From positions 1,240,001 to 1,304,000 of the forward strand of contig BQMF02000013.1 of assembly GCA_027922465.2 (NCBI GenBank): a stretch of DNA of 64,000 nucleotides, in the 5' to 3' direction. The first letter of the stretch is position 1; each line of letters begins with the position of its first letter. A program made the position numbers and the translations under genes. The notes below the pieces were generated by a model. That model was not told the origin of the DNA. It worked only from the letters and a program-made list of their open reading frames with translations, and searched no databases. This stretch comes from Turritopsis dohrnii. Taxonomy: Eukaryota > Cnidaria > Hydrozoa > Anthoathecata > Oceaniidae. Of the stretch, positions 4,401 through 63,200 are shown one piece after another.

Positions 4401-7133
4401 TTACTAACCCTTTCCTTTAGATTTCAGTCGTCGTTATCCAAATCACCTGGATGGAGACCATCGTTCAAATACTATAACAAGTGGATCTCCTTCATAGGGT
4501 TCCTATTGTGTGTTGCCATTATGTTTTTGATTAATTGGTGGGCAGCGTTGATTACGATTTTTGTAGTCGCCGTGTTGTATAAATATGTTGATATCAGGAA
4601 ACCCGATGTAAGTTTCGGAATCTTTCAGATTTATTTAAAAAAAAACTAAACAAAAAGGCGGGAGGGAGGTCACAGATTGTGTGGTTTTCTATTTGTATGA
4701 AAGGATTGACCAACAAATGTTACATGTCCCTCAAAGTCAATGTGCGTTTTTGAAGAGTTATGTTCGAAACATAACAAAAAGCTTCTTATGAATTCTTACC
4801 AAAAATCCAAATTTCGCGTGAACTTTTATTTGTGAGAATTACTTAGGATGTTTCGCTGACACTGAAATTTTATTTCATATTCCAGATCAATTGGGGCTCA
4901 TCCGGGCAAGCACATACATATTTGAAAGCATTGCGATTCACACGCCGTCTGGATGAAGTTGAAGACCATGTGAAAAATTTCCGTATCCAATGTTTATGCT
5001 TGACGGGTCAGCCATCTTTACGCCCGAATCTCGTTCAATTCGCATCGCACATTACAAAGCATTATGGTCTATTGATTTGTGGTGAAGTTGTCATTTCTGA
5101 TCGATTGACGCCGATGGGTGGTAACGAAGGAAAATGGCTTCAAAAGCATAAAGTGAAGGCGTTTCATCAAATCGTACAGGGTCAGCTATTACTATTCCTA
5201 TAGTTTCGTAAGGGCGTGCCCCATTCCAAGCGGGTGGAAAACATAAACTTTCCGATGATTGGTTGTAAAAAAAAGTCTATAGAAAAAGTCTAAGAAAAAC
5301 CGACTTGTTTCTGTCCGCCAATGAATAAAAATTCTTTTTTGGGAAAAAAAAGTTGTTTATTTTCGTGTAGACGAAACACTGCGCAGAGGCGTTCGATGCA
5401 TGCTTCAGTCTGCTGGAATTGGAAAACTAAAACCAAACACGATGCTGATTGGCTACATGAACAGGTGGCAGAATGTTGATGTCAGCAAAGTTGAAGAGTA
5501 TTTCTCCACTGTTCACGACGCTTTTAATTTGCGATATGGTGTCGGCATACTTCGTTTGCAAGACGGCTTCGATATCACTGATGAGGTACTCGACGATGAA
5601 ATAGAAAATGGTGTCGTTGAGAATCACGAACCAGACTGGTACACAGAGGATTGGGATGAAAGCCAGAAAGCTAATGGTGCTCAAGGTGAGCTTGGAATTT
5701 AATCGGTTGAAAATTCTTTTAAACTTTAAAATCCAAGGATTTCCATGAGAAGGTAAAATAGTAAAACGGTGTGTAACCACATATCAATCACTACTTTGTT
5801 ATGTCTGGGTTAGCGTGACAACATTCTCTCCCAAACCAAAAGAAGAGACTTTGTGAAATATTTTGTGATCTTAAGTGTATGTGAAAATGTTTCAACGATA
5901 TATATACTTATAATTACGTCATGGCAGCAAAGCGAAATAGCGTATTAAAACAGCCTCGAGTGTTACTACTAATGTCTTTGAAAGTTATCTCTTTGTTGTG
6001 GTTGTGGTTTATGGAAGTCAAACAATGTGTGGCTTCACCATTTTAGGGGGTGTGCCCTAACATACATAAAGGGAATACAGAGCTTTAACCACGTCATCTC
6101 ATTACGTAGATTAATCGGGAAATTAGAAACAATTCTCCTTACAATAAACAATATTACAATAATATATATTTTGTATTTGAGAGCTGATTTAGAATTTTAT
6201 AATTTAGGCGGAAAGAAGACATTTTGGTATAAACTTGGACCAAATTTTGAAAATCATCATGACATTTCTATAAAACTTGACTGCGCTGATTTCGAATTTA
6301 AGGCCAATTAACCTAAAGGTCCGATTCTAGTGAGAGTTTGCACGTAGTACAAAATAATGATAATTTGGAAAGTGTTGAGGTAGTTGCTAAATGTGACGCT
6401 TATTGGACTTATTACTACACCTTGTAAATAAACGTTCGTAAATTGTCAAGAATAGTTGCCTACACACTATGAACACACACTATGGCTGTATTACTACACC
6501 CTGTTAATGAGGTTGTTTTTTTTTTCCATAGCGAGTGATGGCGGTAGCGACCAAGTTAACGGCGTTCAGAATCCTGCGGTAATCCAAACCCCCGATATCG
6601 TGATGGAATTCCACAAGAAACGAAAGGGTTATATCGACGTATGGTGGTTGTATGATGACGGGGGTTTAACTATCCTGGTGCCACACGTTTTGTCGCTTAG
6701 CTCTCATTGGCGTGGATGCAAACTACGAATTTTCACCCCCGCGTCCGACAAGAAAATAAAAGCCAATCAGATCCGTATGGCGAATCTGTTGAAGAAATTC
6801 CGTATTGATTTTTCCAGTGTGGTGGAATTTCGCGGGATAAACAAACATCCAAAAGACGATAGCATCCGAGCATTCAAGAAACTTCGAAACGGAGAGCATC
6901 TGCCGGCTGACGGTAATTTAGATAAGAAAACCCTGCGGCAGATTCGTCTTGGTGAATTGCTTCACGAGCACTCGTCCGACGCCAAACTGATCGTGTTGAC
7001 GCTTCCCATACCAAAGCAAAGTGTCGTCACGTCGCTTATGTATATGAGTTGGTTGGAAGTTTTGTCGGCCGATCTTCCACCCGTTCTTCTCATTCGTGGT
7101 AACCAAACTAGTGTATTGACATTTTATTCATAG
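1438..7133 (+). CDS. SLC12A2: Cation-chloride cotransporter, NKCC/NCC (SLC12A1-3) type, 5' end missing
   Basis: Plasma-membrane Na-(K)-Cl cotransporter driving chloride uptake. Exons 1438-1702, 2789-3507, 3845-4149, 4421-4607, 4886-5180, 5371-5685 and 6532-7133 all have GT/AG borders and join in phase, giving about 895 residues up to the stop. Exon 1 carries the first transmembrane helices ([13 protein letters not shown], then a VGQAGIG loop). The exon 1/2 join restores a [11 protein letters not shown] motif diagnostic of the NKCC branch. Exon 2 has an extracellular loop with NIT, NGT and NVT glycosylation sites. The C-terminal cytosolic domain runs from about 4886 and ends in LTFYS, the usual NKCC terminus. 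The short regulatory N-terminus with kinase-docking motifs is not visible. Assignment to NKCC rather than KCC is firm; which of SLC12A1, A2 or A3 is closest cannot be decided here. Confidence 0.95.
1924..2537. mobile_element. Decayed Tc1/mariner-pogo-like element in SLC12 intron 1
   Basis: The left end is CAGTCAAACTCT just after TA (1922-1923); the right end is the inverted GATTCCACTG followed by TA (2538-2539). GCGGACA motifs recur at 1858, 1876, 1971 and 1980, in and just left of the element. TA duplication and CAGT ends fit the Tc1/mariner-pogo group. No transposase frame is left. The left boundary is uncertain because the GCGGACA motifs start about 65 bp outside it. Confidence 0.45.
2643..2720. 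repeat. 78-bp foldback repeat, CAACCTCGAACCC family
   Basis: Near-perfect hairpin: CAACCTCGAACCCGGGGTCT on the left and its imperfect complement on the right, around a loop that includes a TATACGG motif. The same family occurs at 43980-44050 and 44126-44190. Confidence 0.6.
3635..3780. repeat. Dispersed repeat, copy 1 (SLC12 intron 2)
   Basis: Contains GGGCAAAATCG-like, AAGTCACTG, ATTGAAAT and CACTCTTTCGCAGAG segments in the same order as two copies at about 8365-8455 and 8470-8605. Non-coding; probably a decayed transposon fragment. Confidence 0.5.
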
Positions 7134-24546: not shown

Positions 24547-26409
24547 TCACTTGTGTTGCATCAGCCTGAAATGGCGTTCTTTGTCACGTTTTGTAAAAAA
24601 GCAATAATTGCAACCAACGTATGGGCAATAGTCATAATCCAAATTGTCTGGTGTTACATTTTGTTTCAATTTCAAAGATCTGTAAATTTCCAGGAAAGTC
24701 TTAAAATGGCCATGATGTATTTCCGAGGAAACAGGATTAGGGCAGGATCCACCAAATTCTTTTATCATATTTAAAAATTGGTTATCTCGTCTTGGCAATG
24801 ACTCACAATGATGACAAGCCCTATCAGAACATCGCAGAAATTCAATCTGATAAGGTTTTCTGTTGCAGTGTTTCACGAAAAATTTATAAATGTTTTGAAG
24901 TTCTTGGTAGTCGCGATTTTCTTGCAACTTTTTCTTTGATGCCTCTGAAAACTCTTGAATCAGCTTGTGCGTCTTTTTCATGGACTCGATCATGGGATTG
25001 CTGGAAAGAAAAGTGCTCACAGAAATTGAAAAACCTTCGAGGATTTTATTGTGCCAGAATCGCGAGCATAAAATAGCAGCATTATCCAAAACTTGGTCCC
25101 ACAGCTCCACTTCCCTTTCCTTTGGAATTTTACCGTTTATTTCAACTGGAAGCACAACACCTGTTAACCACTTTGTCAATTTTGACCAACTCCTTTCAAT
25201 GGGATTAAAACGTGAGTGACCTGGTGCATAGCATTGTACGACAAGAACATCAAGTTTTAAATTTCGCCAAAGATAACCCAATGAAACCAAATTTATTAGA
25301 CCTTTCACAGACCAATCCGGTCCTCCATCTGCTATTGCGACGACGTTGTAATAGCTTCTATATTGTATTTTTGATAATAAAGTTATCAAAAAGCTGACAT
25401 GCATGACATTAGTACTCTCAATGATTCGAGCAGGATACAGTTGAACATGCAGTGGTCCAGTACGGGGCCAAGATACTTTTTCGCGACCGATTCGATCTTG
25501 TGTACAAGGGAAATTAGTTTTTATGCTCCTTAGGAAATTCGAATCAACAGAATAACTCCTCCTGACGGGTTTTTTCGGTTTCCTTTTCGGTGATAGCGAT
25601 CGTGACCGTCGTAACCGTGCCTTTAGAATTTTATACCCAGCAGGCACTAACTTTGCATTGCGATATGGGAAATCGTGATCGTTTAAAACAGGTCTCATGT
25701 TATCCAGATGAAACGTTGCATTAACATTACGACGATCTGTTGCAGGTGTTCCAACCGGTACTTTGTTTTTGTTATCCACGGATAGTGAAATTGTGTTATC
25801 ATCACAAATTGCTGCCATTTCTTGCACAATGTTAATTTGCGAAGAAGAGTAATGGAAATGAGGATGAACTTCCTTTTCACCACTGTTGCATTTAGGTGGA
25901 ATCCTTGCAGGAACTAAGGACTTAAATCGTTTGGCGGCGATTGTGTCTTTTCGGTGTGGCTTCAGAAGCCTATGGATAGTGTTTTTACTTATGTCAATTT
26001 TCAATACTGTTTTAACGTGTGCTTGGATGTTTACCAAACTCACTCCATTTGTGTACATTGCATCATCACGGCGTCGGAGATGTGCTTCCGCTGAGTTTTG
26101 TTCGATAAAGGATTTTATTGTTGGTACCAAATCCGTAACTTTTTCATGAATGGGTATGGGTCCAGGTCTTTTTCTACCTGTTATACAAGAAAATAAAAAT
26201 TATTAATTATACTTTCATCAAAATAAAGAAACAATGCAGCGTACATCAGTTGGCATAAAAATGGAAATTGCACATCATCTAAATTCATTTTTCATCAACT
26301 ACTTCCTAAAACTATACTCACATTGCTGTAATTTCTTTTCAGCTTCTTTTCTTTCATGCGCTAAAGGCTCATCGACATCCTCAAACAGCCAAGAAAAATC
26401 GTCATCCAT
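24547..26409 (-). CDS. DDE transposase, Zator/ISAzo13-like
   Basis: Two exons, 26409-26322 and 26177-24547, join in phase and give about 572 residues with no internal stop. It opens MDDDFSWLFEDVDEP. A helix-turn-helix-like stretch lies at about residues 75-105 (VSLVNIQAHVKTVL, SKNTIHRLLKPH). The catalytic triad candidates are Asp164 (SLSVDNKNKVPVG), Asp313 (VVAIADGGPDW) and Glu357 (YAPGHSRFNPIERSWS). The intervening LNDHDFP and KLVPAGYKI blocks mirror bacterial ISAzo13-type transposases. The C-terminus has Cys/His clusters (CSDRACHHCE and CPYVGCNYCFFTKRDKERH) that look like zinc fingers. It sits inside matched inverted repeats. Function: cut-and-paste transposition. Confidence is high for transposase, moderate for the superfamily name. 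Confidence 0.85.
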
Positions 26410-35700: not shown

Positions 35701-37122
35701 TAATCTTCATAGTTTCTTATACAAAAAAAAAACAATCACAAAAAACGTACTACAAATAAAATCAATCAAGCAAAAATTGTTTCCATAGTGACCATTACAT
35801 CTATTAAGTTTTTAAAAAACAACATGATCTGTTTTCTGGTTGTTTACTAGATTGAGCACTAAGTATTCATGTTGCTGAATTTTTTTCCCAGAGATGCATA
35901 TTGTTGCTTAAGCTTGGTTTCCAATAAAATTATTTTTGTTGCGCAACCGTTTTGCAGCACTTTGTTGTGCAACAAGTGTAGGAAATTGTTGCAGAGATAG
36001 ATTTTATTCTATCTCTGCAACAGGTGTTGTACAACATATCTTTTGTTCTGAAAAACGGTTGCACAACCGTTGTGCAACAAAAATAATTTTATTGGAAACC
36101 AAGCTTTACAAAAAAACACGCAGGGTAATGTTCTTGTCCTCGTTTTGTTGTTGTTTTTTTTTTGCAATAGACCTTTCCTGAAAGACTATGTGGTAACTCC
36201 AAACTCCTCAATGATGGTTAAGAACAATTTTAGCAATTAAAAATGAGATTAGATGTACTAGCTCAAAACAGAATAGTTAAACAGTAATCACTTGGTTTTG
36301 ATTGGTTAAATATGCGAGACAATAATTTTGAAATACAATAAAAAGAAAAGGAAAGGCCATTGGGTATAGGCAAACATAATTCTCTGAACCAAGTTTGATG
36401 GTCAGAAATTGGTAGATAAACACTCAGAGTATTCTTGGCAGTACTTTGAACTTAATTATTGGTTGTAATTTTGTAAAACAGAATCTGGAAAAATCAAAAC
36501 CTACCTCATAACACTTTGATGAAGCAAATTTTGGAAATTGGTCCAGATCAGGCTTGCTACAGTTAACCCTGGATTGTATAGTCTTTCCTTTAGACCCTAA
36601 TGGATTAGGATATAAGTATTGCAAATCTGCAGCAGGGTACAATTTCACTTCTTTCTGGCCAGAAAATACCAACAAAATATTATCGTCTGGGTCAAAGTGG
36701 CAGAACTCATAATGTCCTTGTCTTGCAATCCACAAGTATGGACCACAATGGAGCTTCTGGACATAGGCTGGAACTCGAATATCTTCCAGGAGTTCTGGTA
36801 ATGCCTTTTTAATGTTTTGAACTGCTAGATAGGAGTTTTGTGATTTCTTGTTACCTACTTCAATATTGTCAACGTAATCTGAAAACTTCATGGATTCAAT
36901 ATTATACTTTTTTCCCACTTTGTATGATTCATCAGCTGTATTTTGACGGACAAATATTGTATTATGACCTGCCTTATTCTTAATTGACTGTAATGTCCAT
37001 TTCATTGCTGGCCAATCATCAATAGCATTTTCAATAACAACCGGACATCCTTTATTGAAATAATTCTTTTCAAAATCTTCCACTGACATGTTGGAAATAC
37101 GATCAACAAGGCACCTATCCAT
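32750..37122 (-). CDS. JmjC/cupin-8 Fe(II)-2-oxoglutarate oxygenase, TYW5-like
   Basis: Two exons, 37122-36505 and 33160-32750, join in phase (KCYE then CKLNAGDM) to give about 342 residues, close to the 315 of human TYW5. Residues 20-40 hold the family's PVVIENAIDDWP opening. The iron-binding HxD is in HYEFCHFDPDDN and the distal His in FPAFWWHQIT. NAGDMLYFPAFWWH and YLYPNPLGSKG are the usual strands of the double-stranded beta-helix. The protein has no transmembrane segment or signal. Close relatives hydroxylate proteins or modified tRNA bases; the substrate here is unknown. The 3.3 kb intron (33161-36504) holds at least two mobile elements. The start at 37122 gives a complete domain, though a spliced upstream exon cannot be excluded. 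Confidence 0.85.
33530..34565. mobile_element. 1.04 kb TIR element with CGCGAAA-rich ends
   Basis: CTTTAATGGGAGAAACTTT on the left and its inverse on the right, flanked by TA (33528-33529, 34566-34567). Each arm is about 190 bp and repeats TTCGCGAAA-TAAATCCC units. No transposase frame. The TA duplication suggests a Tc1/mariner-type origin. Confidence 0.75.
34576..35690. repeat. Cluster of T-tract ACCCC hairpins
   Basis: TTTTTTACCCC or its complement GGGGTAAAAAA recurs at about 34577, 34662, 35295, 35323, 35648 and 35678, in opposite orientations. The outer pair could be the ends of a 1.1 kb element; no target duplication is clear. Confidence 0.4.
35911..36105. mobile_element. 195-bp foldback MITE with TTA duplication
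   Basis: About 75-bp near-perfect inverted arms beginning AGCTTGGTTTCCAATAAAAT, with GTTGCGCAACCGTT inside. TTA flanks at 35908-35910 and 36106-36108. Same AGC-TGGTT end type as the elements at 9167 and 49349. Confidence 0.8.
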
Positions 37123-38790
37123 AATGCAATTTTACACTTATATAAATATCACATTCTTTTTTTGACTTTTGTGGGAAATGCTGTAAAGTTGTATTTTTCT
37201 ATAATGCAGAAATGTTATATGATATATCTCTATCTTTTCTTGTTCTTTAGCACTTTTCTTCAAATGAGTAAAATTATACTGTATTAAATTGTATGATCTT
37301 TTTCAATGTATTATTATCAAATAATTACCAATCAATTAGTGCATAATGAACTTACAGTTTGTTTTTACTAGTATAAAATATGAAAAACGCTCAAATACCT
37401 CTGGAAACAACCAAGAGAGAATGCTTAAAAGAATGTGGAAAACATGAGGAAACATGATGTATCTTGCGTAGTCTGAGCCACAGTCAGCAACATTTTGAAC
37501 ATTCTGTAATAGAGTATACAACATTCACAGAATTTTTTCAAGGTTTTTTTGCAGACAAAACCTTGATTTTTATATTTATTTACATTAATTTTATTTTATT
37601 AACAAATTTTATGCAGCAAATCTATAGTCCTTTCCTCCTGCATATTAAGGACTTACAAAAAATCTACTTTATAAAAGAAATTATGGTTTTAAACAGTGAA
37701 AAAGATGTTTCTTTTAATTTCACAAATTCGAACGAAGATGTTTGTCCCTTGTGTGTTCAAATTAGAGAATGTATACTGTATACAACACACAAATCTTTTA
37801 TATACTTGTAATAAGAACTCAGGTCAATCTCTAAAAATCTTTTATATACTTGTAATAAGAACTCAGGTCAATCTCTAAAAAAGTACCTATATGGTATAAA
37901 AATTGTTGTGTACGTACAGGTGGTTTAAAAAAGCAAAGTAAAGAGATTCATTCTATAAACATGAAGCAGCTAATCAACAAAGAATTTCTCTAACTTTATT
38001 TATAAAACATGATGGAAGAAGGCCACTGAGTTAGAGAAATAAAAACTTTTTATAACTTCACCACCTTCTCCCCACACATGGTGACTGCAAAACATAAGTT
38101 CTGGTGAGTCTCAATGGCAGAAAGGATAAAATTAGGCAAATGATTGAGTAAGCTGGAAACTCGTATGACGGATCCTCAAACCATAGTCACTTAAAGTTAA
38201 TTTTCTGTACACACACATGCTCCTGCAACTCGACTCTTCTGAATTTGTAATCTTGAATGAACTAGCCTATCATAAAAAACATTCTCAACTAGGCATCTTA
38301 AAGGTTGTTGTCGATGTCCTGTATTTATAGGCTAAATTCGTGAAAGCATAAGGAAAATCTCCATCGCAAATACCCTAACTATTTCCTGAAATAACTGACT
38401 ATACTAAAGTCTATTCAGCAAATCTCAAGATTTTGATGCAGGAATTTTCCTAAAAGTTCAGCTATAAGAAAATTAATTTTCTTGTTGGAGACAACCTGAA
38501 GAGTTCTTGTGAAACTTCTCTTTAAAGTAAGCATGGTGAAGTGCTGTTACCGACAAAATAACTTTTGTTTTCGTAAACTCGATGTTCTGCGCTAAATTCA
38601 TAGAACGTATTTGAAGAACAGAGACAAAACATTCTAACCTGCACTTTCTCCTAAAACGTGCGGTTGTCAAGGGTTAGAAAAGTATTTGAAGTAAAACTTT
38701 GCTAAATGAGTTCGTCAACATTATTCATTATGCATATTAACGTTGAGTTCAGAACAAGCTCTAATAAGAGTATAACTTGTTATTTTTATT
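37123..38790. other. Divergent spacer between the JmjC gene and the DCLK gene
   Basis: The two genes face away from each other, so both promoters should be within this 1.67 kb. A 44-bp unit is duplicated in tandem at 37791-37880. A minus-strand open stretch (37503-37399, DYARYIMFPHVFHILLS) is flanked by plausible splice sites but does not join the JmjC gene in phase. Confidence 0.45.
37791..37880. repeat. 44-bp tandem duplication
   Basis: AAATCTTTTATATACTTGTA through CTCAGGTCAATCTCT is present twice in direct succession with no visible differences. Confidence 0.85.
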
Positions 38791-41497
38791 ATGGTTATTA
38801 ATGACAATTTGCCATTAATCTATCTCCACAACTCAACGCACAAGAAGAAGCAACACGCACTTCTCGCTTCAACTAAATTGATTTCAAAACCAAGAGCACG
38901 TACCAATAGTCATCGTTATTACAGGCAAAAAAACTTTAGAAGAATGGATGAGCTACCATCAATTGTTGATACTTATTCCAAGCCAAAGGTGGTCCTGTTT
39001 TTTAAAAATGGGGACAGAAATTTCCGAGGATATCATGTTACAGTTACCCCAAGACGATTTCGAAATTTTGATAATTTGTTGAATGAGTTGACTCGTATTA
39101 CCAATCTCCCTCAAGGAGCACGCTTCATTTTTACTCCAGAAAATGGAAAACGTATTCTATCATTAGAGGAGTTGGATGATGGAAAATCTTATGTTTGTGG
39201 ATCTTTTCCCAAATTAAAGAAGATAAAATATGGATGTGCGCCTGATGGATCATTGCGTAAAACACCTGTTAGCAGAAATTTTATTCCAATTACAAATAAT
39301 ACAAAGCTTAAAGTGGAAACAGAAAAACCACCAACCAATATAAAACCTAAAATAATCACTATTATCCGGAATGGTAATAGTCGTCCACGAAGAAGTGTGA
39401 AGATTTTATTGAACAAACGAACTGCACAAACATATGACCAAGTTTTAAATGACATTGCATCTGCAGTTGGAGTTGGTAATGGCTCTGGAGTACGAAAATT
39501 ATATAATGTTGATTGTAAGCCAGTTCTAAGTTTAGCTGAACTATTTAGTGGTGGTGATGTATTCATTGCAGTGGGTAATGAAAAATTTCGACCTTCAGAC
39601 TTAAATGTCATTCTTGATGATTTCAGTGTGAATAAAAGTAGTAAACATGATAAAGCTGGTTCACAAACAAGTTCTATGCAATCTGACAATTCACCAAAAC
39701 AGTATAAGAAAGGGAATTCAAAACATCCTGTGAAATCAAATAATGATAAAAATGACAACAAAGTTCAAAAGTTTTCTTCTTTAAAGAAATTGCCTGAAAT
39801 TAAGAAAACTTCATCAGAAGACAAACAAAATGATACTAAGCCAACACAGGTAAATAACGAGGCCTTAGAAAAAAATAACAGTAACTCTGATCAATACCAC
39901 CACGTTGTTATCGATAATGAAGCCTTGTTGCCACTGGAAAAAAATAATGATAATGGACTGGAAGCAGCAATAAACAGTAGCAATATACCTCCTATTGAAA
40001 AGACTACCCCTTCGGAAAAAGAAGGTCGTGCATCAGATGTTGTTTCCACTGATCGAAACGAAAGCATTAAATCAAGCAATACTGGATTGATTGATTCACA
40101 GAACTCCTCGAAGCATGAAGGAATCTCTGATGAGGCTGATGATAGTACTACCATCTCTGGTGATCAAGAAAATTCAATTCAACAACCTTCAGATGTAATT
40201 GAGGGAAATGATGATGACACACATATTGTTTTAGAAGCTGAAAATGCATCTGATTCTGAGTCATCATCATCAGATGTTGTGTCTGTCAAAAGTGTAGTTG
40301 CCTCTGAAGCAACAGAAAATCTGGAAATTGGTAACACTGAAAAGAAACTGCCTTCTGCGCCACCTATGTCTCCTATCTCTACCAGCATACCTATCAAATC
40401 TGAAGAAACTGTACAAAAGACTGATCACTTTCAAACAAGTGATGAAATAATGGAGTTGTATGAATTTAGTGATAAGCTGGGTGATGGAAATTTTGCAGTT
40501 GTTAAAAAAGCTGTTGACAAATTAACAAGAAAATTGTATGCTGTAAAGATAATTGATGCAGCGAAAATTGAAGGTAAAGAAGGACTGCTACGAAATGAAA
40601 TTAAAATTCAACGTAATTGTGCCCATCCGAATATTGTTCAACTTTACCATGATTATCATTCCCCTACAAGTATTTTTCTTGTTATGGAACTTGTGACTGG
40701 AGGTGATTTCTTTGACTTGATTGCAACTAACATAAGTTTTGAAGAAGAAGAAGCTGTGAACTATGTTCGTGACCTTTGTAGTGGTCTGGACTATTTACAC
40801 CAAAGAAACATTGTGCATCGTGATATTAAGCCAGAGAATTTAATGGTGAGATAATTTTCTTTTGAGACAGCTTGAAAATATAAAAATTCATCTGAGGTTT
40901 TTTAAACAACTCTGAATTGTTTATTTATAGGTATTTGAAGGTTCTACTGGACAACAAATTTTGAAGATCGCAGATTTTGGGCTAGCAATGAAAGTTATAC
41001 AGCCGATATTTACGATATGTGGAACTCCAACATATGTTGCACCTGAAATTCTAGCTGAAAAAGGCTATGGCCTGGAGGTGGACATGTGGGCTGCGGGAGT
41101 CATTATGTATATCATGTTATGTGGTTTCCCGCCATTCAGGAGTCCAAATCGGAAGCAGACTGAGCTATTTGATTTGATTGAATCAGGGGAATTTGAATTT
41201 TTGGCACCGTACTGGGATGATGTAACAGATGCAGCAAAGGATTTAATAAGCAAAATCTTGGTTGTTGATATTGGAGAACGTTTGAAAGCTGCACAAGTAT
41301 TCTCTCATCCTTGGCTTACACACTATCGCTTATCAAGAAACAATTCTATTGACTCTCCAAAGAAGATAAATCGGTTTAAGACTACAGCACGGACAATTCA
41401 GTCCATACAGAGAATGAAGTTCCTTTTGGATTTGAAAATGCAAAGGAACGAAAACTTCATAACTCATGGTCAAGTACGTGATAGTATGACAGAGTAA
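38791..41497 (+). CDS. DCLK: Doublecortin-like protein kinase
   Basis: Microtubule-binding Ser/Thr kinase. Exons 38791-40845 and 40931-41497 join in phase, giving about 873 residues. Two doublecortin domains: about 65-147 (KVVLFFKNGDRNFRGY to KSYVCGSFPKLKKI) and about 183-275 (KIITIIRNGNSRPRRS to DVFIAVGNEKF). A Ser/Asn/Asp-rich linker of roughly 280 residues follows, longer than in human DCLK1. The kinase starts near residue 557 with GDGNFAVV, the lysine in YAVKII, HRDIKPEN at the exon end, DFGLA, and CGTPTYVAPE with GYGLEVDMWAAGV, all typical of DCLK. Motifs for an active kinase are complete. The first ATG is at 38791; Met52 (38944), just before the first domain, is an alternative, and an AG at 38931 could be a 5'UTR acceptor. 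Confidence 0.95.
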
Positions 41498-48262: not shown

Positions 48263-51200
48263 ATGATTTCTCAAAGAATGAAAGAGCGACGTCAACAGTT
48301 ACGGAAAGTATGCTCTGTTTTGTTGCATTGTTAATGTTTATTTTCACATCATGCAGCAATGCTGTTTCATCTTTTTCTTTTTTGTTTTTTTGAAGTCCTT
48401 ACAAACACAATCAGATGCTGAAGAACCTTCAACAAGTTCACAAACACCAATGGTAGGGTGTCATAGCTGAAATTCAATGTTTCTCAATTTCATGTCTTTT
48501 CTACTTGATGTTAATAAATGAACATTTCCTATTTCTAGATTCCTCTACAGCCTTTAAACAGAACTGAACAGGTACATGCTAGTATTTATTTCAAGGAACT
48601 CAAAGAGCATAATTCTAAATAAACTGCAATATACTGCAATATACCTTATACTCAAGTTCAGCTATAAGCACCTTGTTTCTCCCTTTTATACACTTACATA
48701 AAACTTTCCTTGGTTTGAATATACCTTGCTGTATCTCAGAAAAATGTTTTCTGACATATGCCACTGTTAAAAAGGATTTTCAGAAAATAAAATATACTAT
48801 ATAACAAGTATTTATCTGTTGTGTTGACTTAATGTTATTTTTGGAATTGCCATCTGGTCTACATAAATCCTTCTGCCTCGGATAACTAATAAACTAAAGA
48901 TCTTTAAACCTAAAACTGGTATGGTCAACCAACTTGACACACGGAATGTATTTGGCAGACCAAAACTAGCAGGTCAACCCCTTAAATCCAAAAAGCTTTT
49001 TTGAATAAATTATTAACATGATTGTTTGGAAATTTAGATTGACAATGAATCTGAGGATATGTTGGAAGCTTTGCAAACAAGAAGAACCCAACGTTTTGCA
49101 GAAGTATAGATTCATACTAATTATAAACGTTTATACCCGAAAATTTCTTCTGTTTTGTGCTTATTTGCTTTTTTTTTTTTTAGATGAATGAAATTGATCA
49201 TTCAGATAGAATAGGTAAGTGTAACTTTTAATATTATTTTTCAGGTCATAACCTAGTCTCCTGACAAAGCAAAACTAGTAGCTGCTATACTAAGTACTCT
49301 TTTTTGTTGTGACTTTTGAAAGCAAAGTCCTATCTATGCTCTCTGTAAAGCATGGTTCACACTGCACGTTTAAAATATACACCACGTTTAAAAAAGCGTT
49401 TATGAAATGCGTATATTTTTTACCGGAAATGGCTGTACTGAAAGCGATACAGTTCACATTGCACGTATAAATAAACAAGATATTCACCAAAGGCAAATTT
49501 AAATGAAAACTGTGTAACGTAAAATGACGAACTCTGATAGCGAAGCTGACGAAATTTTAGCAATATCATTCTACTTATTATTTGAAGATGATGGTGAACC
49601 TATGATGAAAAAAACGTACTTCGGTTCGTGATATATTCAAAGGAACAAAGGCATACGGTCAATTCCATACCCTTTTCCAAGAAATGAGAAATATTGACAG
49701 GGAGAACGTTTTTGGGTGTAAGAGAAAAGGTCAAACAAAATACGAAAATTTTGCAAAAAAAGTTCAAAATTTGATAGCGCACCTGTTCGAGTATGAAAAC
49801 AATAGATTCCATTAAAAATTTAAAAGGAATATGCGGCAAGTCTTTGAAGTTCATAAACGCGGTGTATATCGATGGTGTATATATCAAACTGATTTGATAT
49901 ATACACCGTCTATATACACCGCGTTTATGAACAAATGTTCGCAAAATGAGTGCTCTTATTTTGTTCACACTACGCGTTTATATTAAACACCGCGTTTAAA
50001 AATGCGCAGGGTTCGAATTAAATCTACTAAGTGATCCGCGAAAAATTGAAAACCTCCGGGGAGCACCTCCCCCACGATGTTTTTATTTCAAAATGATACC
50101 AGTAAAATAAAATACATTTTTTTTAGCATAAAAGTAAAGTTATCAAAATAAAAAACACAACCAAGATCATACGATAAACGTAATAAAAGAAGTTATTTTA
50201 CACGCAAAAATAATACATTAATGTTCTTCATCGCTATCTAAATCTTCTATGTCTGAAAGTGTCATTGCACCAAGGTCTACAATACAAGATTTCTCATTAG
50301 ATGTTTTTCTTTTCTTGGGGTAATTGTGAGGGCCCGAAGATAGTCTGCGCACTTTCGCATCATACCACTCCGATATCGCAACGTCTGGATTAAAGCTTTC
50401 GATGTCAGAGCCTTCTTCACATATCTGCAATGTAGCACTTAGTCGGTCACGATATAATCTGTTACGCCAATCATTTTTTACACGTAACATTCTCGAAAAC
50501 ATCCGCTCAAGTTTTGCATTTGAGAAAGGTGTAATCAGAAGTATCTCGAAGATGTGAAGTACATTTTTGCATTCTTCGATGATAACATCATTTGTGAAAA
50601 CACGCTCCCAAATTTCCAAATACTTTACTTTTGGCGAATTATTACGCATAGGTATAACAAACGTTTTCAAAGTCGTCCACTCACGGTGTATTTCACCAAT
50701 TTCACAGCCGTTGTTGTCGAGCAACTGACAAAAATGCTTTTTTAACGATTCCATCTCGGGAGATCCAAAATCAGTTAATTCTTTTGGCCAAGAAGATACA
50801 TCAAGAAGTGAAACAAGATTTTTAAAAGGCGGTGAGGAGGAGAGTTCTTCGAAACAATTTTCCATACTATCTGTTATACTAGCAATAGTAGAATCAAAAA
50901 TGATAGTAACAAAGAAAAGAACATTTTGGATTCTCTTTTTGAATCGAAAATAAACGCACTCCTTAGTAGAGATTATTTCTTACAATGTACATGAATGTTA
51001 TGCACAAATTTCTAATGTCAAAACAATGTCGTTTTTTTCTTTCATTCGATTTCCGGATGTACAAAATTCGAAAAATTCAATTTCAACCAATCAGAGTGCG
51101 TCCTTCATATGCGGCAAATGCGCAGAAGAAAAAATTTAGAAGTTTGAATGAATTTTTTGAGATTTCCCTTGTGTTTATTAGTATCAAATAAAAACTTTTT

Positions 51201-54200: not shown

Positions 54201-57200
54201 AGAAAGACACTGAAACTACTGTAACTAAATTTAAATGCATTTTTATTAATTGTAATGTAATATTATTTTCCTTTTTTCAGCCCTCAGAATTTGATTTAAG
54301 ATAGGTCGACAAAATATAGTAATTTCAGGTCGGCTTTTGGAATTTTGCATTGATTTAAGGTCCGCTTTTGCCAAGTGCTGACCTAAATTCAGATGACTGT
54401 TCTTTCCTATGTGTCTATGAGTCCTGACCTTGAATTATACATAAATCATAAATTGGTTAATATAAGGAGTACAGCAGATGGATCTAGATAGTTGGAACAA
54501 CATTAAACTCCCAGAAGGTTGTAAAAAAAAAGGACTACAATATTCCAATTATAAGTCTTGGGATTTACATTTAGGTGGGAGAGGGGGGTCATGTTCATCT
54601 TGTCGGTTTCAATCAGTACTTTAATGTCAACTTTGTCTGCAGATTTTGTTAGTTTGAATTCTTAAAACAATGTTCAGAAACATGAGTACTGTTTTGAGTA
54701 CTTTCTATTCTTATACTCCTATACTTTAAACTACAATACTTTGAAAAAGTATTACTTTAAATTTTAAGGGACTCGTAACTGAAGAAGAAGCTTTCCAGTT
54801 TTTTGTTGGAGGATTGGATGAAGAAAAAGATGAAGAAATTGATACAAATGTTAGTAAACACGGCTTTTCAAAATAATTTAGTATAATGCTATCCACTACA
54901 CTAAATTACTACACTGTCATTTTAATAGCTCCGAAGGGCTCTTTCAAAATAGTCCTTACAAAATAGGCTAATGATAATCTAGTATACTGCATAAAGATTC
55001 TTTATATTGTATGGAGAATGATAGTTTGATCCATTTTGTTGTCATGAATCAAATAGAACTGTGCTGATGACTCCTGTTCTTTTGAAGCAACATAGAGGGA
55101 ATTTACTTGAAACATGACTGGAGCAATTATTTTTTTATGCTTTTCTTTATGCTTTTCAGGTGCCCCCAGTGGAATCAGCAGTTGTTTTAGAAATGGAAGA
55201 TGAACACCTTATTTACAATGCAAAACCTATCTATAGAACCACGAAAGAACGACAAGAAATAGAAAACAGAATGTACCACTATCCATCGTCAATTCCAGGT
55301 AAATCTGACATATTCCTTCTGTGTTTTAGAATCCTGCTAGTTCATGAAGGTTTTTAAAATCTTATTATTTTACTCTTTTTATTCTCCCAAGCATTTTTTA
55401 CTTTTAGTAACATAACGTTTCTTGTTTGCTTGCTTTATAGCACCATCAGAAATGAAGGTACCACCAGGGACTGTGCCACGTAATTTAGAAGACGAAGGAT
55501 TTTATGTTGGCAACACTCCAACAGTATCGCGTGCTACTCTCAGTAAAATGGAACATCGTATCCTTGCAGCTGATAAAGTACGAAACATTCTGTGTTTCGT
55601 TTGCATTTTCATATGATCAAACGTGTTTTTATATAGTAGATGAATGCAAACACAAACTTAACAATGCTTAAGAATGACCGACTGGTTTTATTTTTGTGTT
55701 GGAGGGTTTTCACCTAGAAAAATGTCAAGAAGGACTGCGACTTTGGAATAGAATTTTGAAGTGATCTCTACCCTAGGTTGAAATAGTTTTTGAAAGTAGT
55801 TGATAATTATTGTACTTTTAAAAATTCAATGTATCACTTCATGACAAGTATTAATTCCTCACATATCAAACAATTTTGGAATCAAGATGAATTTTGATGT
55901 TTTATATTACACATCCTTCATTTTTCAGAACTCTGGCTGGTTCAATGAAGATGGCAATTTAAAGCGACAACCAAACCCATTAAAAGAACAATCTGTCCGC
56001 CAAGTTCTAATAGATGAACTTGATGTAGATCCTATGTTACAATTAGATTGGCAAAAGGTACCATAATTGTTGTGCTATGTGCTATAAAGACTACACAGTG
56101 TAAATGTTTCCTATACCAGCCATTGTTAATTCTGTGCCTGATCATTTTGTTAGGCTCAACCTTCGTTGTTAGATACAAGATATATCGATGAACAAGGTGA
56201 AGAAAAATTAAAATTTTTATTCTTATTCCTTCTTAACTCACGTTCGTTTACGGCAGCAGAGAAGGCGGACATTTAGCAATGCGCATGCGCGAACAATATT
56301 TTAAAAAACCTTTGGCAGGAGTGATTTCCTGGCCACACACCAATGCATGAATTTTGCCCCAAATTAGGCAAAATTTAAATACCAGGTAGGGAAATTGAAA
56401 TTCAGATGAAAAAAAGAAGACCAAGGAATACTTTGAAGTGCAAGTTGCTTTGAGTTTTCCGCGAGAACTTTGATTTTCGTGGGAAAACAAGAGTGCACTT
56501 CGTGAGAAAAATTTACATAACCCGACCAAATTGGACCCAAGACCCTGTACTTTTATAAAAGTAAGTTATACATCAAATTGTAGTTGCACCCTACCCACCT
56601 GTTCCCCTACCATGGATCACCACGATAATCTCAAAAAACTTTGCAGAATATGTGGAAATTTAGTGCAGAAAGATTCAATAGACATTCTTACCAATCCAGA
56701 AAGAAGGCAAAAACTCAAAATTGCATTGTTCATAGATATCAATGCAGACAATAAGGACATCCACCCACCAAATATTTGTCTGAAGTGCTATTCTACAGTG
56801 AGGAATGTAACAGAAAAGCAGACCACGAACCATTTAAAGCCTGTTACTTGGACTCCTCATAGTGAAGTCAACTGTACTACATGTCATTGGGCCAAGGCTT
56901 ACAAAGTTGGAGGGAGGCCAAGAAAAAACAAATTCATTGGGTGTCCAGACTTGGAGAAAAAAACATGGAATAGGGAGATGATAAACAACATCGACACATC
57001 AACACCTGTTGATACTTATTCAATTCCCATTCAAAATATCGACCCTCTGAAAAACCCACATTTGTCATTGTGCATTTGCAGTTTTTGAAAGAATATTTTC
57101 TCACAACCATTAATGTTAAATGTATGCCAACTCTTCTCTGCCTTACATGTTTACTACCAACTTTGGAGGGGCAGGGAATAAGAGACAGTAAATGCCCACA

Positions 57201-60200
57201 GTGTGGAAAATCTTTTACGCAGAAAAATGTGCAACCTTCTGCTAATTTGAAAAAGTTGGTAGAATGTCTAAAGCTTTTTTGCAACAAATGCAATGAATCA
57301 TTTCACCAAAACCAATGCACCCCAAACCATGTAAATTTGGCTGAGCTTCTTACAGACCAATAGTGCTGACATGCAGAGGAAAGCAGAGGAAGTTGCCTTT
57401 CATGTTGTAAGAAATGAATTGGAAGAATCGAAAAGTAAATCTGCGCACAGGTGGTTCCAGCAGGGTAAGCACATTTTTCTGGCATAACACAAAATATGAA
57501 AATTTTTACCAATTACAATAAAAAAAACTATTTTAATGGATTTATTTTAGCCTGTTGTTTACACTCAAAAGTCTGAAATCAAGAAAAGCAGTGATCAAGT
57601 TTGCAAAAGGACTCTCAGACGGAAAAATAAAAGTTTTGAAAGAATGTTTCGACAAAACTTCAGGTCAAAACACGAATGCTGTTGTCACGCAAACTTCGCA
57701 TTTTTTTGAAACAATTTAAGAAGAAGATCATCGTCAGTTCTGATTTACCATCAGCAGACATAACTGCCGAGTCCATGGTGGCCCTGAAAGCAGAAATGGG
57801 GATTCTGTGGGAAAAGCTGAAAAATATGTCTTGGTAAAGTTTTTGAAACAAGTTTGTGCGGATTAAATTTTCTGAAAGATTAGAAAGATTAACCGATTGA
57901 TTTTTATGTGAATTTTTCTACCATTTCAAGAGGTTCAAATATTTTCAAATTCATAAAATTCAATCCACACAAAAAAAACAATTTGAATTATTGAAAAATT
58001 ACTTAGAATTAGATTAGAATTGTGGGGAAAACAAATTCACTATAAAGAGAAAAAATAAATAATTTGTCAAGGAGTATAATTGAGAATTTAATTTGTTTGC
58101 CCAATGCAAAAGAAAAGTTTTTCTCTCAATTCACTTTTGTCCATACTTTGCATACTGCAGCAATAAATAACTAATTATTCCTTTCAAAAACTATAGTTGG
58201 CTGAAAAGACACAATATTTCTACTGCGTCTCATGTAAAGTAACGCAGCATAGCAACATCTTGGTCTGGTGAAGATGTCATTGTTGAGGATACTCCATTCA
58301 CATTCATGGATGAATCAAAATCCGTATACATAAAAACAGCACCATGGGGATATGTGGAAGATCTTCCAAACCATGTGCTAGGAGTGACCTAGAAGAGTGA
58401 GTTTTTAAGTATCATTATTAACACAACTAGTAATATTCAAGGCTATAAAAAGAAAACAATTTACAATTTTTAGAAACAATTTACTTGAAGAGTCCATAAA
58501 TAACGAAATCCACGTGAAGATTGGAGGAGATCATGGCAGTGGCTCATTTAAAATGAGCTACCAAATCTGTAATGTCAAACGGCCCAACAGCAAAGACAAT
58601 ACGATTGCCTTCAACTTCTTTGAAGCCAAAGATTACCGCATCAACCTGAAAGTGACATTGAATAGATTTAAAGAACAGGTTGACCGACTGCAAGACCTTA
58701 CATGGGAGTAAGATATTAATGTAAATATTCTTACATGATCCCTATGTAAATTGGTACAGTAAAAGGTATAGTAAAATTTCATTGATTCTTTTTTAGAGGG
58801 AAAACCATCAGAGTATTCACGTTTGGGGATTATGAACTTCTTTGTGCTTTGTATGGTATAACTGGTGCGATAGGTGAGATATAGAAAAAAAAGCTTTATG
58901 TGGATAAAAATATCCATGGATCAGATGTTATGTACAGGCACACAGAGAGAAAAACCTTCTCAAGGACAACTTTTAAACCTTTTTAGGTCGCCACTGTTGC
59001 CTTTTTGCAAAATTTTTAAAGGTGAATTAAAAGTTTCAAAAGCTTATCACCAAAACGTACACTGGAGAATCTGAAGTCAAATTACGATGGTTTTGTGGAC
59101 AGTGGAGATGATATAAAGCAAGCAAAACATTTCAACAACGTGATAGATACCTGCATGTTTAAGTTCCAATAATACAAGTAAGCATACCAAGATCTTTTTT
59201 AGCAACGGTGTATTTATTTATTTTCAATGAACATAAATCATTTTCAAGGTTGCAACCCCAGTTCTTGATATTTCTCTGGGAGTATACTTAAAGTTTTTTA
59301 ATATGTTGGAAAATAACTGTTGTGAGTTGGATACCTTGATTGAAGCTGAGTTAGCTTTAAAACAAAAGAAAATCAACATACCTTTGTATATATCAACGCA
59401 CAAAGAGATTTTAAACCTGAAGTCTCAAATAGCAGACGCAGACACAAAAATTGATCTCATCATTGACGCAATCGGAAGGGGCATTATCAGCCATCCTGAA
59501 AAGGAAGAGGAAATAAGGTCAACATACCATCTGCGAATTGACCATTTTCAAAAGATAAAAAATGACAACGTAAGAACAACGTTTTTTCTTATAAAGTAAC
59601 TTTTAACTGAATGGTTATAATTAATTGTCAATAAATTTTTATAGCTTGGAAAAATAAAGAGATTAACAGAAAACATGGTTACGGACAAAGGAGCAGGTCC
59701 AAGCGTTACAGTATTGGACGAAATACTGAACAAGTTGAACGTTCAGCGACAAGCGTACCATGGCAAAAGTTTTGTTGGTAATCACGTCCACAAAATGTTA
59801 CAGGTAATTTATATTTTTATCTGCACTTTTAATATTTATAGCAAAATGTCTTAAATGAATCTACTTTCAAAACTGATGCAGGATGTTCACATCATCAAAC
59901 TTTGTAATTCTATTCCAAAAACTGTGGCAAGACTGGGGCTTACCGATAGCAGTATCCATCACAAATCGGCTGAAGTGGCACACGATTTTAAACTGCTTTT
60001 TCATAATATGGTCTATGTCACAACATAATCAATAACTGCAATAGAATTCAAGATGACGACATTGCAAAATTAGGTAAGTATTGCATTGCTTTTGCATATA
60101 ATAATTTATCATACAAATAAAAATACAAATTAGCTGAATTTTTAGAAACTAACATCGAAGAACTGATGAAATATTTGAGAACAAAATTTCCTGGTAGCTC

Positions 60201-63200
60201 CATCACACCAAAACTACACATGCTGGAGGATCATGTGGTGGAATTTGTTAGAAATTGGAAGGGGCAAATAGGGATGTATAGTGAACAGGGCGGACAGTCC
60301 ATCCATCCCGAATTTAATGGCATCCACCAATTGTTCTGCCGGATGAAGCCTAACATCAGGCGTGTGAAAAGTATGCTCAAAGAGCATCATATGAGGGTAA
60401 ATCCAAATGCCAAAAGGCTTAGAACAATTAAAAACAGTCGGAAAAGAAAGGTTGCTGACTAGAACACCAAATGTTTATATAAGAATTAATATAAAGTTTG
60501 AAGTAAAATAAGTTATGAATAAAAAAATACAGGTGAATTTGGTTTTTTTGTACCTTGTAAACGTACCTATGCTCTATCCAATTCCAATTTCCTTATGCTT
60601 GGAAAAACTTTGAAAATCTTTAAAATGCTTTCCAACCTTTTACCATGTCGATTCCACAAATTCAACATTATCTCTGGTAATTCCTAAGAACTGACACACT
60701 GCTCGAGAAATCCTCTTGTCAGTCTTTCAAGTGAATGTTCTTAGACCATGCTGTCAGCGGTTAGAGGTCTGAAACTGGTTATTTCAGCACTAAAATTCGC
60801 ATAACTTATGCAACAATGACGGCGTGGCACCCTAGATAAACTTACGCCACTCTCCCTGCCATTATGATTTAACGGAAGCAAGCCAGCGCGCCCGCATTCA
60901 GCTATGTCCGCCTCAAAACGAACGTGAACTGAAAACTGAAAAAGTATTGTTTATAGTTATAGTTATGCAGTTAAAATGTGACCACCTCCTTTATACGACC
61001 AGTTTGTGATCTGCCTAGGTTAATTTTAGTACAAACATAATTGCGTAAAACAACCACCTGTCTAAATTTTTCCATATCCCTGAAAGTAATTGTTATAGAG
61101 AGGTTTAACTGTGGTGCTTGACTTTTGTTAAAATAACACTATGTTCTGCATGCTCTTTTTGATGTTAACATGATCGAGCAGATATTGATATCTGATTTTC
61201 ATATTTCTTAGGAATGTCTGAAAGAGATGTTGATATCTGAAACATCTATAACAAACCTGTAAATACTAGTTGTGTCATTCATATGTTTCTATTACCAGAG
61301 GGTAATACACGTCAAAAACCAAAGCACAATGCGCCATTGGGCATCGAGATCTCAGCGCCCAAATTCAAACCTCACTTCTTCATGTTTGAACTTTTGTTTA
61401 TTCAGTTAATCATGAATATAAAAGTTTCTCTTATTATATGCATGGATGAAACAATCATTTTTTTCTTAACCCGCGTGATCAGAATATGTGTAGCAAGAGG
61501 ATAAATAGAAATACGAACATAAGTTTGAGCAATTTTAGGCAAATATAGATTGAAGATTTATAGCTCCCACCATCCAGACCCCCCAGATAGCTGCCATGGC
61601 TCACGTGGCAATTAACGCCACCCAAATTCAAATCTTGTATAACCCCCTGATTACACTGTAGTATGCAACCAGATCACTGCAAATTATGTTTAAAGAATTA
61701 TGAATCTCAATAGATAATAATCTTTCCACCAAAATTCACCTAACAAGTGGCATGCCACAAGGATCAATATTGGATCCTTTGACGTTAATATGATTGGTTA
61801 AGTATTAATAACAAATCCAAAATATAATCAAATTATGCCATTGTTATTGCCAGGTAAAAAACATTACCAGATAGATGTTGACATTTCCGAGATCAGGTTC
61901 ACCCACCAATCTCTGTTCAGTCGTGAGCATGTCCTAGAATCAAGGTTGATACAGCTTTACAGGCATTTTGTTCTTCGTCAGAAAAGTGGAGTGCAAGAAC
62001 ATTTGGAGCATAAGGTATTCTTTTTTCACAACTCTTACAATGGTCCGTTTAAATCGTTGAATTGGATATTGTGCATTATGAATATGATTTTCTTATCAGC
62101 TTGAGGCATTGCGAACATCATTGCAACAGCTGAAGAATGAAAGTGAAAATATTGAGCAAAAACAAAGTAAAATGCTGTCACGAGAGCATAACAAGCGGAT
62201 CAAAAGTGTTCTTCTTGAAATGAGGTAAAGTCTCCTCCTAGATGATGATATGTTTAAAATCCAACAAACGAATTCTGACTTGATTATCATGCAAGGGCAA
62301 GGCATTTGCAAATAAAAAATTTGTGCTTTTATCCTTTGTTTTTATTAACTTTTGTGAAGTTCAAGTTATTGTACAAAAAATCAATCCTTTACCAAGAATA
62401 TTTGCACCATTCAGTTTTTCGTTATTGAATTATGGTGAATCCAAAGTTCTCCCAAGAAAAAAGCAATATTTCTATTTTTTTCTACCAGTAATTACACCCA
62501 GTAAATTGAATGGAAATAGAAAACTCCTTACGTGCAAATGCTATTAATTGTATTTGGGAAGGAAAAGTAAGTCTATTAGGAACTGAGTTTATCTCTAATA
62601 ACATCTTTATGATCAGTTTTTTCACTCTCTGTATGATGAATACACCTTCCGTTCACTGTTCTGTAATTTTTTGACTCAGAATGCACAAGAGAGTGACACG
62701 GTTTTATAACTGCCATGATGATTGATCTTTATAGAGATTTGTACCTACTAAAAGAAAATGAAGAGGTGCGTGAACGTGCGTTGTTATTAAATATACTCCA
62801 GACGTGGCAAAAGATGAAAAAGTTACGTGAAGCTCAAGAGTATACTAACACCAGCAGTTGTTTGAAAGTTCGAAAGTACGAGTTTTTCTTTGTAATTGAA
62901 TGGTAGTTTTGTCAATCAGTAATTTTAAATTCATTACTGCTTTAAATCCACAGAGGTCATGTTTATGCAGTAATGACTTTGGGTGATTTTAATGGTAGTT
63001 TTAATGGTATTGTTTTTAGAGAATTATCGAATAAGGCGTCAGATGAACAGAAGTATCAACGAGAAGTTGACGAACGTATCGAGAGTGAAAGGTAAACTTT
63101 AATTCTAATTTTTATTTACAAATCCAATAGGCACTTCAACTCCAGCTGACACATCTCAATTTGACACAATTTCTCAATTTAATTTATTACCCCTCACCCA

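Follow-up and report, generated by a model that had tools for sequence, protein, structure and literature searches.

Background

Chapaev transposons carry the RAG1 N-terminal domain known as Chapa, which in two subgroups is followed by a RING finger, as in RAG1 itself. Elements with this Chapa and RING pair were published in 2015, and Chapaevs have been identified in the lancelet and the sea anemone, with cores that are only distantly related to those of other Transibs (PMC4411706; this and all papers below are cited from part of their text). Chapaevs generally have target-site duplications (TSDs) of 3-4 bp and CAC...GTG ends (PMC4079192); they are grouped with Mirage and CACTA in PMC4079192 and ranked in a wide Transib superfamily in PMC4411706. 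Here we describe an element in a 64,000-nucleotide stretch of the genome of the hydrozoan Turritopsis dohrnii (GCA_027922465.2, contig BQMF02000013.1, positions 1,240,001 to 1,304,000, forward strand), which we call the window. The element, 4688 bp long (56239-60926), is very probably a dead copy, with both ends, of a cut-and-paste DNA transposon of the Chapaev type that is present in multiple copies. Its ends are bipartite and unlike each other, as an outer 11-mer (CACGTTCGTTT) and an inner 9-mer (GGCGGACAT) are separated by 14 nt at the 5' end and by 3 nt at the 3' end.

The element resembles the described Chapaevs in its CAC/GTG ends, in a duplication of 3-4 bp, in having the RAG1 N-terminal region followed by RING, as in the two subgroups, and in a core that is only distantly related to RAG1; the available part of that description says nothing of 14/3 bipartite ends (PMC4411706). 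With ProtoRAG and the other RAG1-like (RAGL) transposons it has CAC ends in common (PMC8289069, PMC7204232), and with ProtoRAG also asymmetric bipartite ends, in which outer and inner blocks are conserved and the spacers between them have set lengths, 27 and 31 nt in ProtoRAG, which prefers its own asymmetric ends (PMC8289069). Asymmetric bipartite ends of this kind have been treated as characteristic of RAG transposons, most Transibs being said to end symmetrically (PMC8289069). Unlike the present element, ProtoRAG and RAGL have 5-bp duplications, and the spacers of ProtoRAG differ by 4 rather than 11; they also have a RAG1 core, which had no match in the short core pieces scanned here, and a RAG2-like partner gene, while the coding pieces recognised here belong to a single gene. 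The signals of V(D)J recombination likewise have an outer block that starts with CAC, a 9-bp inner block and spacers that differ by 11, but their sequences are unrelated, the spacers there are 12 and 23 rather than 14 and 3 (18 and 7 when counted from the first seven bases), and they are paired under the 12/23 rule, whereas the likeness of the element is confined to the layout of its ends. Finally, N-RAG-TP of Aplysia is also a transposon with RAG1 N-terminal-like sequence, but it is described as having the N-terminal part only (PMC8355894) and the window element has a core as well.

Boundaries and copies of the element

The limits of the element, the CAC-starting perfect 11-bp inverted termini and the AACT on either side were all present as proposed in an earlier, sequence-only reading of the window. 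The parts of the two ends are as follows.

56235-56238, no strand: left target-site duplication, AACT
56239-56249, + strand: 5' outer end block, CACGTTCGTTT
56250-56263, + strand: 5' spacer, 14 nt
56264-56272, + strand: 5' inner block, GGCGGACAT
60904-60912, - strand: 3' inner block, GGCGGACAT
60913-60915, - strand: 3' spacer, 3 nt (TGA)
60916-60926, - strand: 3' outer end block, CACGTTCGTTT
60927-60930, no strand: right target-site duplication, AACT

Inverted 11-bp pairs that start with CAC, lie 1-8 kb apart and are flanked by a 4-bp duplication were found once in the window and in none of 20 first-order random sequences. When the CAC condition was dropped, four such pairs were found in the window against 0-6 in the random sequences; since these are chance numbers, inverted repeats and TSD alone are not significant. 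The deciding evidence for the boundaries is that the ends recur elsewhere in the genome, by which a chance inverted repeat was ruled out. A search of the genome (436 Mb, 891 contigs) with the first 200 bp of the element gave 16 matches, one in the window, 13 at further places and two that are second pieces of such places; the recurrence that the sequence-only reading had set as its own check was thus seen at 13 other places carrying the 5' end.

All 13 further places were read (L011-L023) and eight were also extended (L024-L031). Because the flanks are common to each pair, L017/L018, L019/L020 and L022/L023 represent one insertion each on two contigs. The independent insertions, including that in the window, number 11, to which two of a family called F2, found by exon search on C19 (L064, L065) and C614 (L062, L063), add up to a total of 13. 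Both ends were readable in eight of the 13, and all eight have a perfect 4-bp duplication, every one different (AACT, CACA, GTAT, TATG, CTAT, CATA, AGTT and CATT). The terminal CAC is present at 13 of 16 5'-end loci, at all ten 3'-end loci and at both ends in the window. A genome search with the exon carrying the presumed first catalytic Asp gave 150 scored matches from 354 candidates, in which some insertions appear twice, on separate contigs. Across matching stretches the DNA of F2 is 64-73% identical to that of window-family copies, and that of another family, F1b, is 65-83% identical. The sister copies L011 and L012 (as L035 and L034) are 99.6% identical over 3.2 kb and lie at different sites, which suggests that their family moved recently and that a transposition assay may be feasible.

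Layout of the ends

Two conserved blocks at a fixed unequal spacing, as in a 12/23-type signal pair, were found in the copies whose ends were read. In the window element the inner block has two matches, one inside each end, and none in 100 shuffles, and the likeness of the inner end parts was matched by 4 of 1000 shuffles. A 14-nt spacer is present at all 16 5'-end loci (window, L011-L023, L062 and L064), and a 3-nt spacer at nine of the ten 3'-end loci (window, L011, L012, L017, L018, L021, L024, L028, L029 and L065), with 5 nt in L011. When the genome was searched with the block pattern and a free gap of 0-30 nt, 61 matches were obtained, with none in a reversed control and 0.08 expected from base composition; the spacer was 14 nt in nine, 3 nt in 51 and 5 nt in one. 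A wider end pattern gave 156 matches against five in the control. Among the 100 of these that were listed, 53 have a spacer of 14 nt, 41 of 3 nt, two of 13 nt and one of 16 nt, and a further three, with 25-28 nt, are chance-like. The same 100 include 29 facing neighbour pairs within 15 kb, 28 of them 14/3 and one 13/3, which are not independent tests as the copies share descent.

Four families could be compared at their ends, with one representative of each. The end searches favoured the block letters, and family F7, known here from the end pattern alone, therefore owes part of its block conservation to the search itself. A DNA search with the 5' end and the exon search both yielded F1b, and F2 came from the exon search alone, its ends being located by homology and the letters CACGTT and AACGTG. 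F7 has the same end layout, with a 14-nt spacer ACTCTGCAGTGCAA and a 3-nt spacer CAC; its copies are often about 3.6 kb and some are 1.1-1.8 kb (examples are C14:312332-315506, C162:800677-802142 and C242:576908-578002).

What the offset between the spacers means was weighed in two ways. On the first, a frozen accident, an ancient 11-nt indel, arising once at one of the ends, was passed on to all copies and has no function. This is the main rival to a functional offset, with a probability that we put at one half or slightly more. In its favour, the families have a common ancestry and the copies are not independent, the sample consists of ends that fit the searched patterns, with 100 of 156 matches listed, and invertebrate RAGL proteins have been argued to be fairly insensitive to end asymmetry, probably depending on the last 15-17 bp (PMC7204232). 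What a frozen accident accounts for less readily is that the spacer sequences have turned over while the blocks and the spacer lengths were kept. Mean pairwise identity among the four families is 0.94, 0.42 and 0.83 for the outer block, spacer and inner block of the 5' end, and 0.88, 0.33 and 0.94 for those of the 3' end, with lengths of 14 and 3 in all four representatives; this turnover at constant length appears more telling than the count of facing pairs. Furthermore, deviant spacers make up only 3 of the 97 plausible listed ends (two of 13 nt and one of 16 nt), plus the 5-nt 3' end of L011.

The second possibility, which by analogy with V(D)J recombination we consider doubtful but worth stating, is that the Chapaevs in this genome follow a rule like 12/23, in which bipartite ends offset by 11 nt would be used only as one long-spacer and one short-spacer end together. 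The transposase presumably binds the outer and inner blocks, and would cut at CAC and insert with a 4-bp stagger; much less certainly, the constant difference of 11 nt, close to one turn of the helix, may allow ends of unequal spacer length to be paired within a single complex. Were such a rule to hold, the pairing of unlike ends at a one-turn offset would either predate the split between Chapaev and RAG/Transib or have arisen twice in transposases with RAG1-type N-termini. A Chapaev group with fixed 14/3 spacers, offset by 11, would be a distant and testable outgroup for the origin of the 12/23 rule. No report of 14/3-type ends for Chapaev was found by title or beginning of abstract among the papers listed in literature searches, and they may be known in Repbase reports.

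Two further observations concern end patterns. A DUF1280-type exon of another family (L049, C13:125333-125575) has a facing end with a 3-nt spacer (AAA) 2.5 kb downstream, at C13:128068-128090, which fits the same 3' layout. A pattern scan of viral contigs gave two matches, by estimate about what chance would give in a collection of that size, and these were set aside; one of them, L001 (181 bases), is G+C-rich and unlike the element.

Coding region and family assignment

All the coding pieces that were recognised belong to a single + strand gene; on the minus strand, where a convergent RAG2-like gene would lie, frames reach 122 residues (no kelch or PHD profile was run on these). Matches are given with their expectation (E) values.

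56612-57085, + strand: first coding piece, with the importin-binding zinc region of the RAG1 N-terminus ("Chapa"), PF12560, E 6.4e-11
57071-57360, + strand: RING finger, then a cysteine/histidine stretch; frame-broken in the window, intact in L011 and L012
57362-57463, + strand: end of exon 1, past another frame change, donor GT at 57465; limits set by eye
57552-57831, + strand: exon before the core, frame change near 57651; compared with L011 and L012
58198-58389, + strand: exon preceding the first Asp; in-frame stops TAA (58240-58242) and TAG (58390-58392)
58475-58705, + strand: exon of the first presumed catalytic Asp (GGDHGSGSFKMS; codon 58529-58531), DUF1280, PF06918, E 6.1e-13
58798-58875, + strand: exon of the second presumed catalytic Asp (TFGDYELLCALYG; codon 58828-58830)
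58989-59169, + strand: exon with CCLF(C), its CxxC frame-broken near 59007
59249-59569, + strand: core exon, VATPVLDISLG...
59645-59803, + strand: core exon
59882-60025, + strand: core exon, open frame stopping after 60025
60130-60459, + strand: last exon, with SEQGGQSIH as the presumed block of the catalytic Glu (codon 60283-60285)

The N-terminal region of the sequence-only reading was borne out; a RAG1-type zinc and RING region had been proposed there, together with a search by RAG1 N-terminal profile. PF12560 (RAG1_imp_bd), which stands in here for a Chapa domain model, matched the first coding piece of the window and, over its cut-off, exon 1 of L012 (E 7.8e-9), which is open from 609 to 1556 (315 residues). 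The only relative of the first coding piece in a protein search, P0054, likewise has RAG1_imp_bd. RING profiles were over the Pfam cut-off in L012 and L023. Exon 1 of L012 aligned colinearly with RAG1 residues 159-409 (E 1.8e-5), with other RING proteins filling 19 places above RAG1 among the best 60 of 96 matches, and a search of the PDB with the exon-1 piece of the window placed zinc-finger chains on top and a RAG1 chain at E 0.002. Sister copies keep an open first exon in which a RAG1 N-terminal region and then a full RING stand in the same order as in RAG1. The RING may act as a ubiquitin ligase, by analogy with what is stated for RAG1 (PMC4411706).

A DDE-like core is also present, in which two Asp and one Glu would form the catalytic triad of the transposase. 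The exon of the first Asp has 53 relatives in a protein search, of which 52 are annotated with PF06918 and only one is named (P0034, Hydra vulgaris). In an alignment of 28 sequences (27 of these relatives and the window) the motif at this Asp is HGGG in 16 and HGSG in two, the window and P0043; of the sister copies, L012 has HGSG and L011 has HGGG. The CxxC after the second Asp is intact in both sister copies. The last exon has nine relatives, none of them with a Pfam domain, and the window has Gln at 60295-60297 where all nine, L011 and L012 have Glu. The HGSG block and the CxxC pair had been put forward as features shared with RAG1 and Transib; HGSG does occur in the window, and in few of the aligned sequences by the counts above, and CxxC does follow the second Asp, although its frame is broken in this copy.

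The assignment of this core to a RAG1 or Transib type was not supported, whereas a DDE-like core as such was. The RAG1 core family (PF12940) had no match in core pieces of the window (E limit 1) or in eight from L012 (E limit 10), which is a weak test because the scanned pieces are short (26-120 residues each). A RAG1-core search of the genome was silent, as it was in all 14 controls, and profiles of two core-exon alignments run against the PDB at E up to 10 found no RAG1 or Transib chain and no meaningful match. The 4-bp duplications, the CAC...GTG ends and the DUF1280-type core exon point instead to a Chapaev, for which the duplication length, the PF12560 match and the RING profiles over cut-off are as described; "Transib-like" holds for the element only in the wide superfamily sense of PMC4411706. 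Since Chapaevs with the Chapa and RING pair were already published, the headline of the sequence-only reading, that the element bears on how RAG1 was assembled, is largely known: a RAG1 N-terminal region, RING and a DDE-like core do stand in one element here, but the combination was already described in Chapaev, and the element alone changes little.

Several points weigh against this assignment. The Chapaev grouping was made from described hallmarks and not from comparison with named Chapaev sequences, and that DUF1280 is part of a Chapaev core is something we infer; C. elegans, Hydra and Nematostella appear in the tree legend of PMC4411706, their clade lying outside the part of that source consulted. 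Five of the 13 insertions (L013, L014, L016, L019/L020 and the C614 copy L062) yielded no 3' end, so that no duplication could be read in them. The first base is not C in two of the 13, namely L013 (AAC) and the single insertion L017/L018 (TAC), and the exon limits in the broken window copy were set partly by eye, with GT/AG sites.

Chapaev, Mirage and CACTA are related groups (PMC4079192), yet it is very improbable that the element is a non-Chapaev member of that assemblage. Its termini are CACGT and not the CACTA given for CACTA elements (PMC1636069), the duplications are of 4 bp, and Chapa and RING are stated to occur in no other known transposable elements (PMC4411706); of this pair only the Chapa part counts here, as retrotransposons with RING fingers have been reported (PMC3630058). 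Slightly less probable still is a RAGL element or a Transib in the narrow sense, as the sequence-only reading had it, despite the CAC ends, the RAG1-type N-terminus with RING and the CxxC following the second Asp. Duplications are of 5 bp in RAGL and mostly so in Transib and RAG (PMC7204232), whereas they are of 4 bp in all eight both-ended insertions, and it is by these that membership was ruled out; the unmatched RAG1 core in the pieces scanned and the failure of the core-exon profiles to recover a RAG1 or Transib chain lend weaker support.

Decay of the window copy

The window copy is dead, because its frame changes near 57086, 57361, 57651 and 59007 and it has in-frame stops at 58240 and 58390. 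A domesticated gene, which its position adjoining host exons could suggest in place of a transposon remnant, is hardly credible in view of these several frame changes and stops and of the many further copies in the genome.

Other features of the window

The host-gene exons upstream of the element are as follows.

55416-56063, + strand: host-gene exons, DUF5523 (PF17661), profile positions 165-212 (E 1.2e-12, over cut-off), then weakly 211-251 (E 0.0034, under cut-off)

We take these exons to be part of CC2D2A, and the element presumably sits in the intron next after them. Elsewhere in the window, a 550-residue open frame at 24550-26199 (- strand) matches DDE_Tnp_ISAZ013 (E 2e-7) and is probably another transposase, and 50221-50979 (- strand) matches the hAT C-terminal dimerisation region (E 3.1e-5). 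Exons for an amino-acid permease (E 2.2e-33) and for SLC12 (E 9.6e-71), at 2767-3513 and 6456-7130 (+ strand), probably belong to one cotransporter gene. A Cupin_8 domain (E 1.2e-28) was found at 36427-37131 (- strand), and doublecortin domains with a protein kinase domain after them at 38776-41494 (+ strand).

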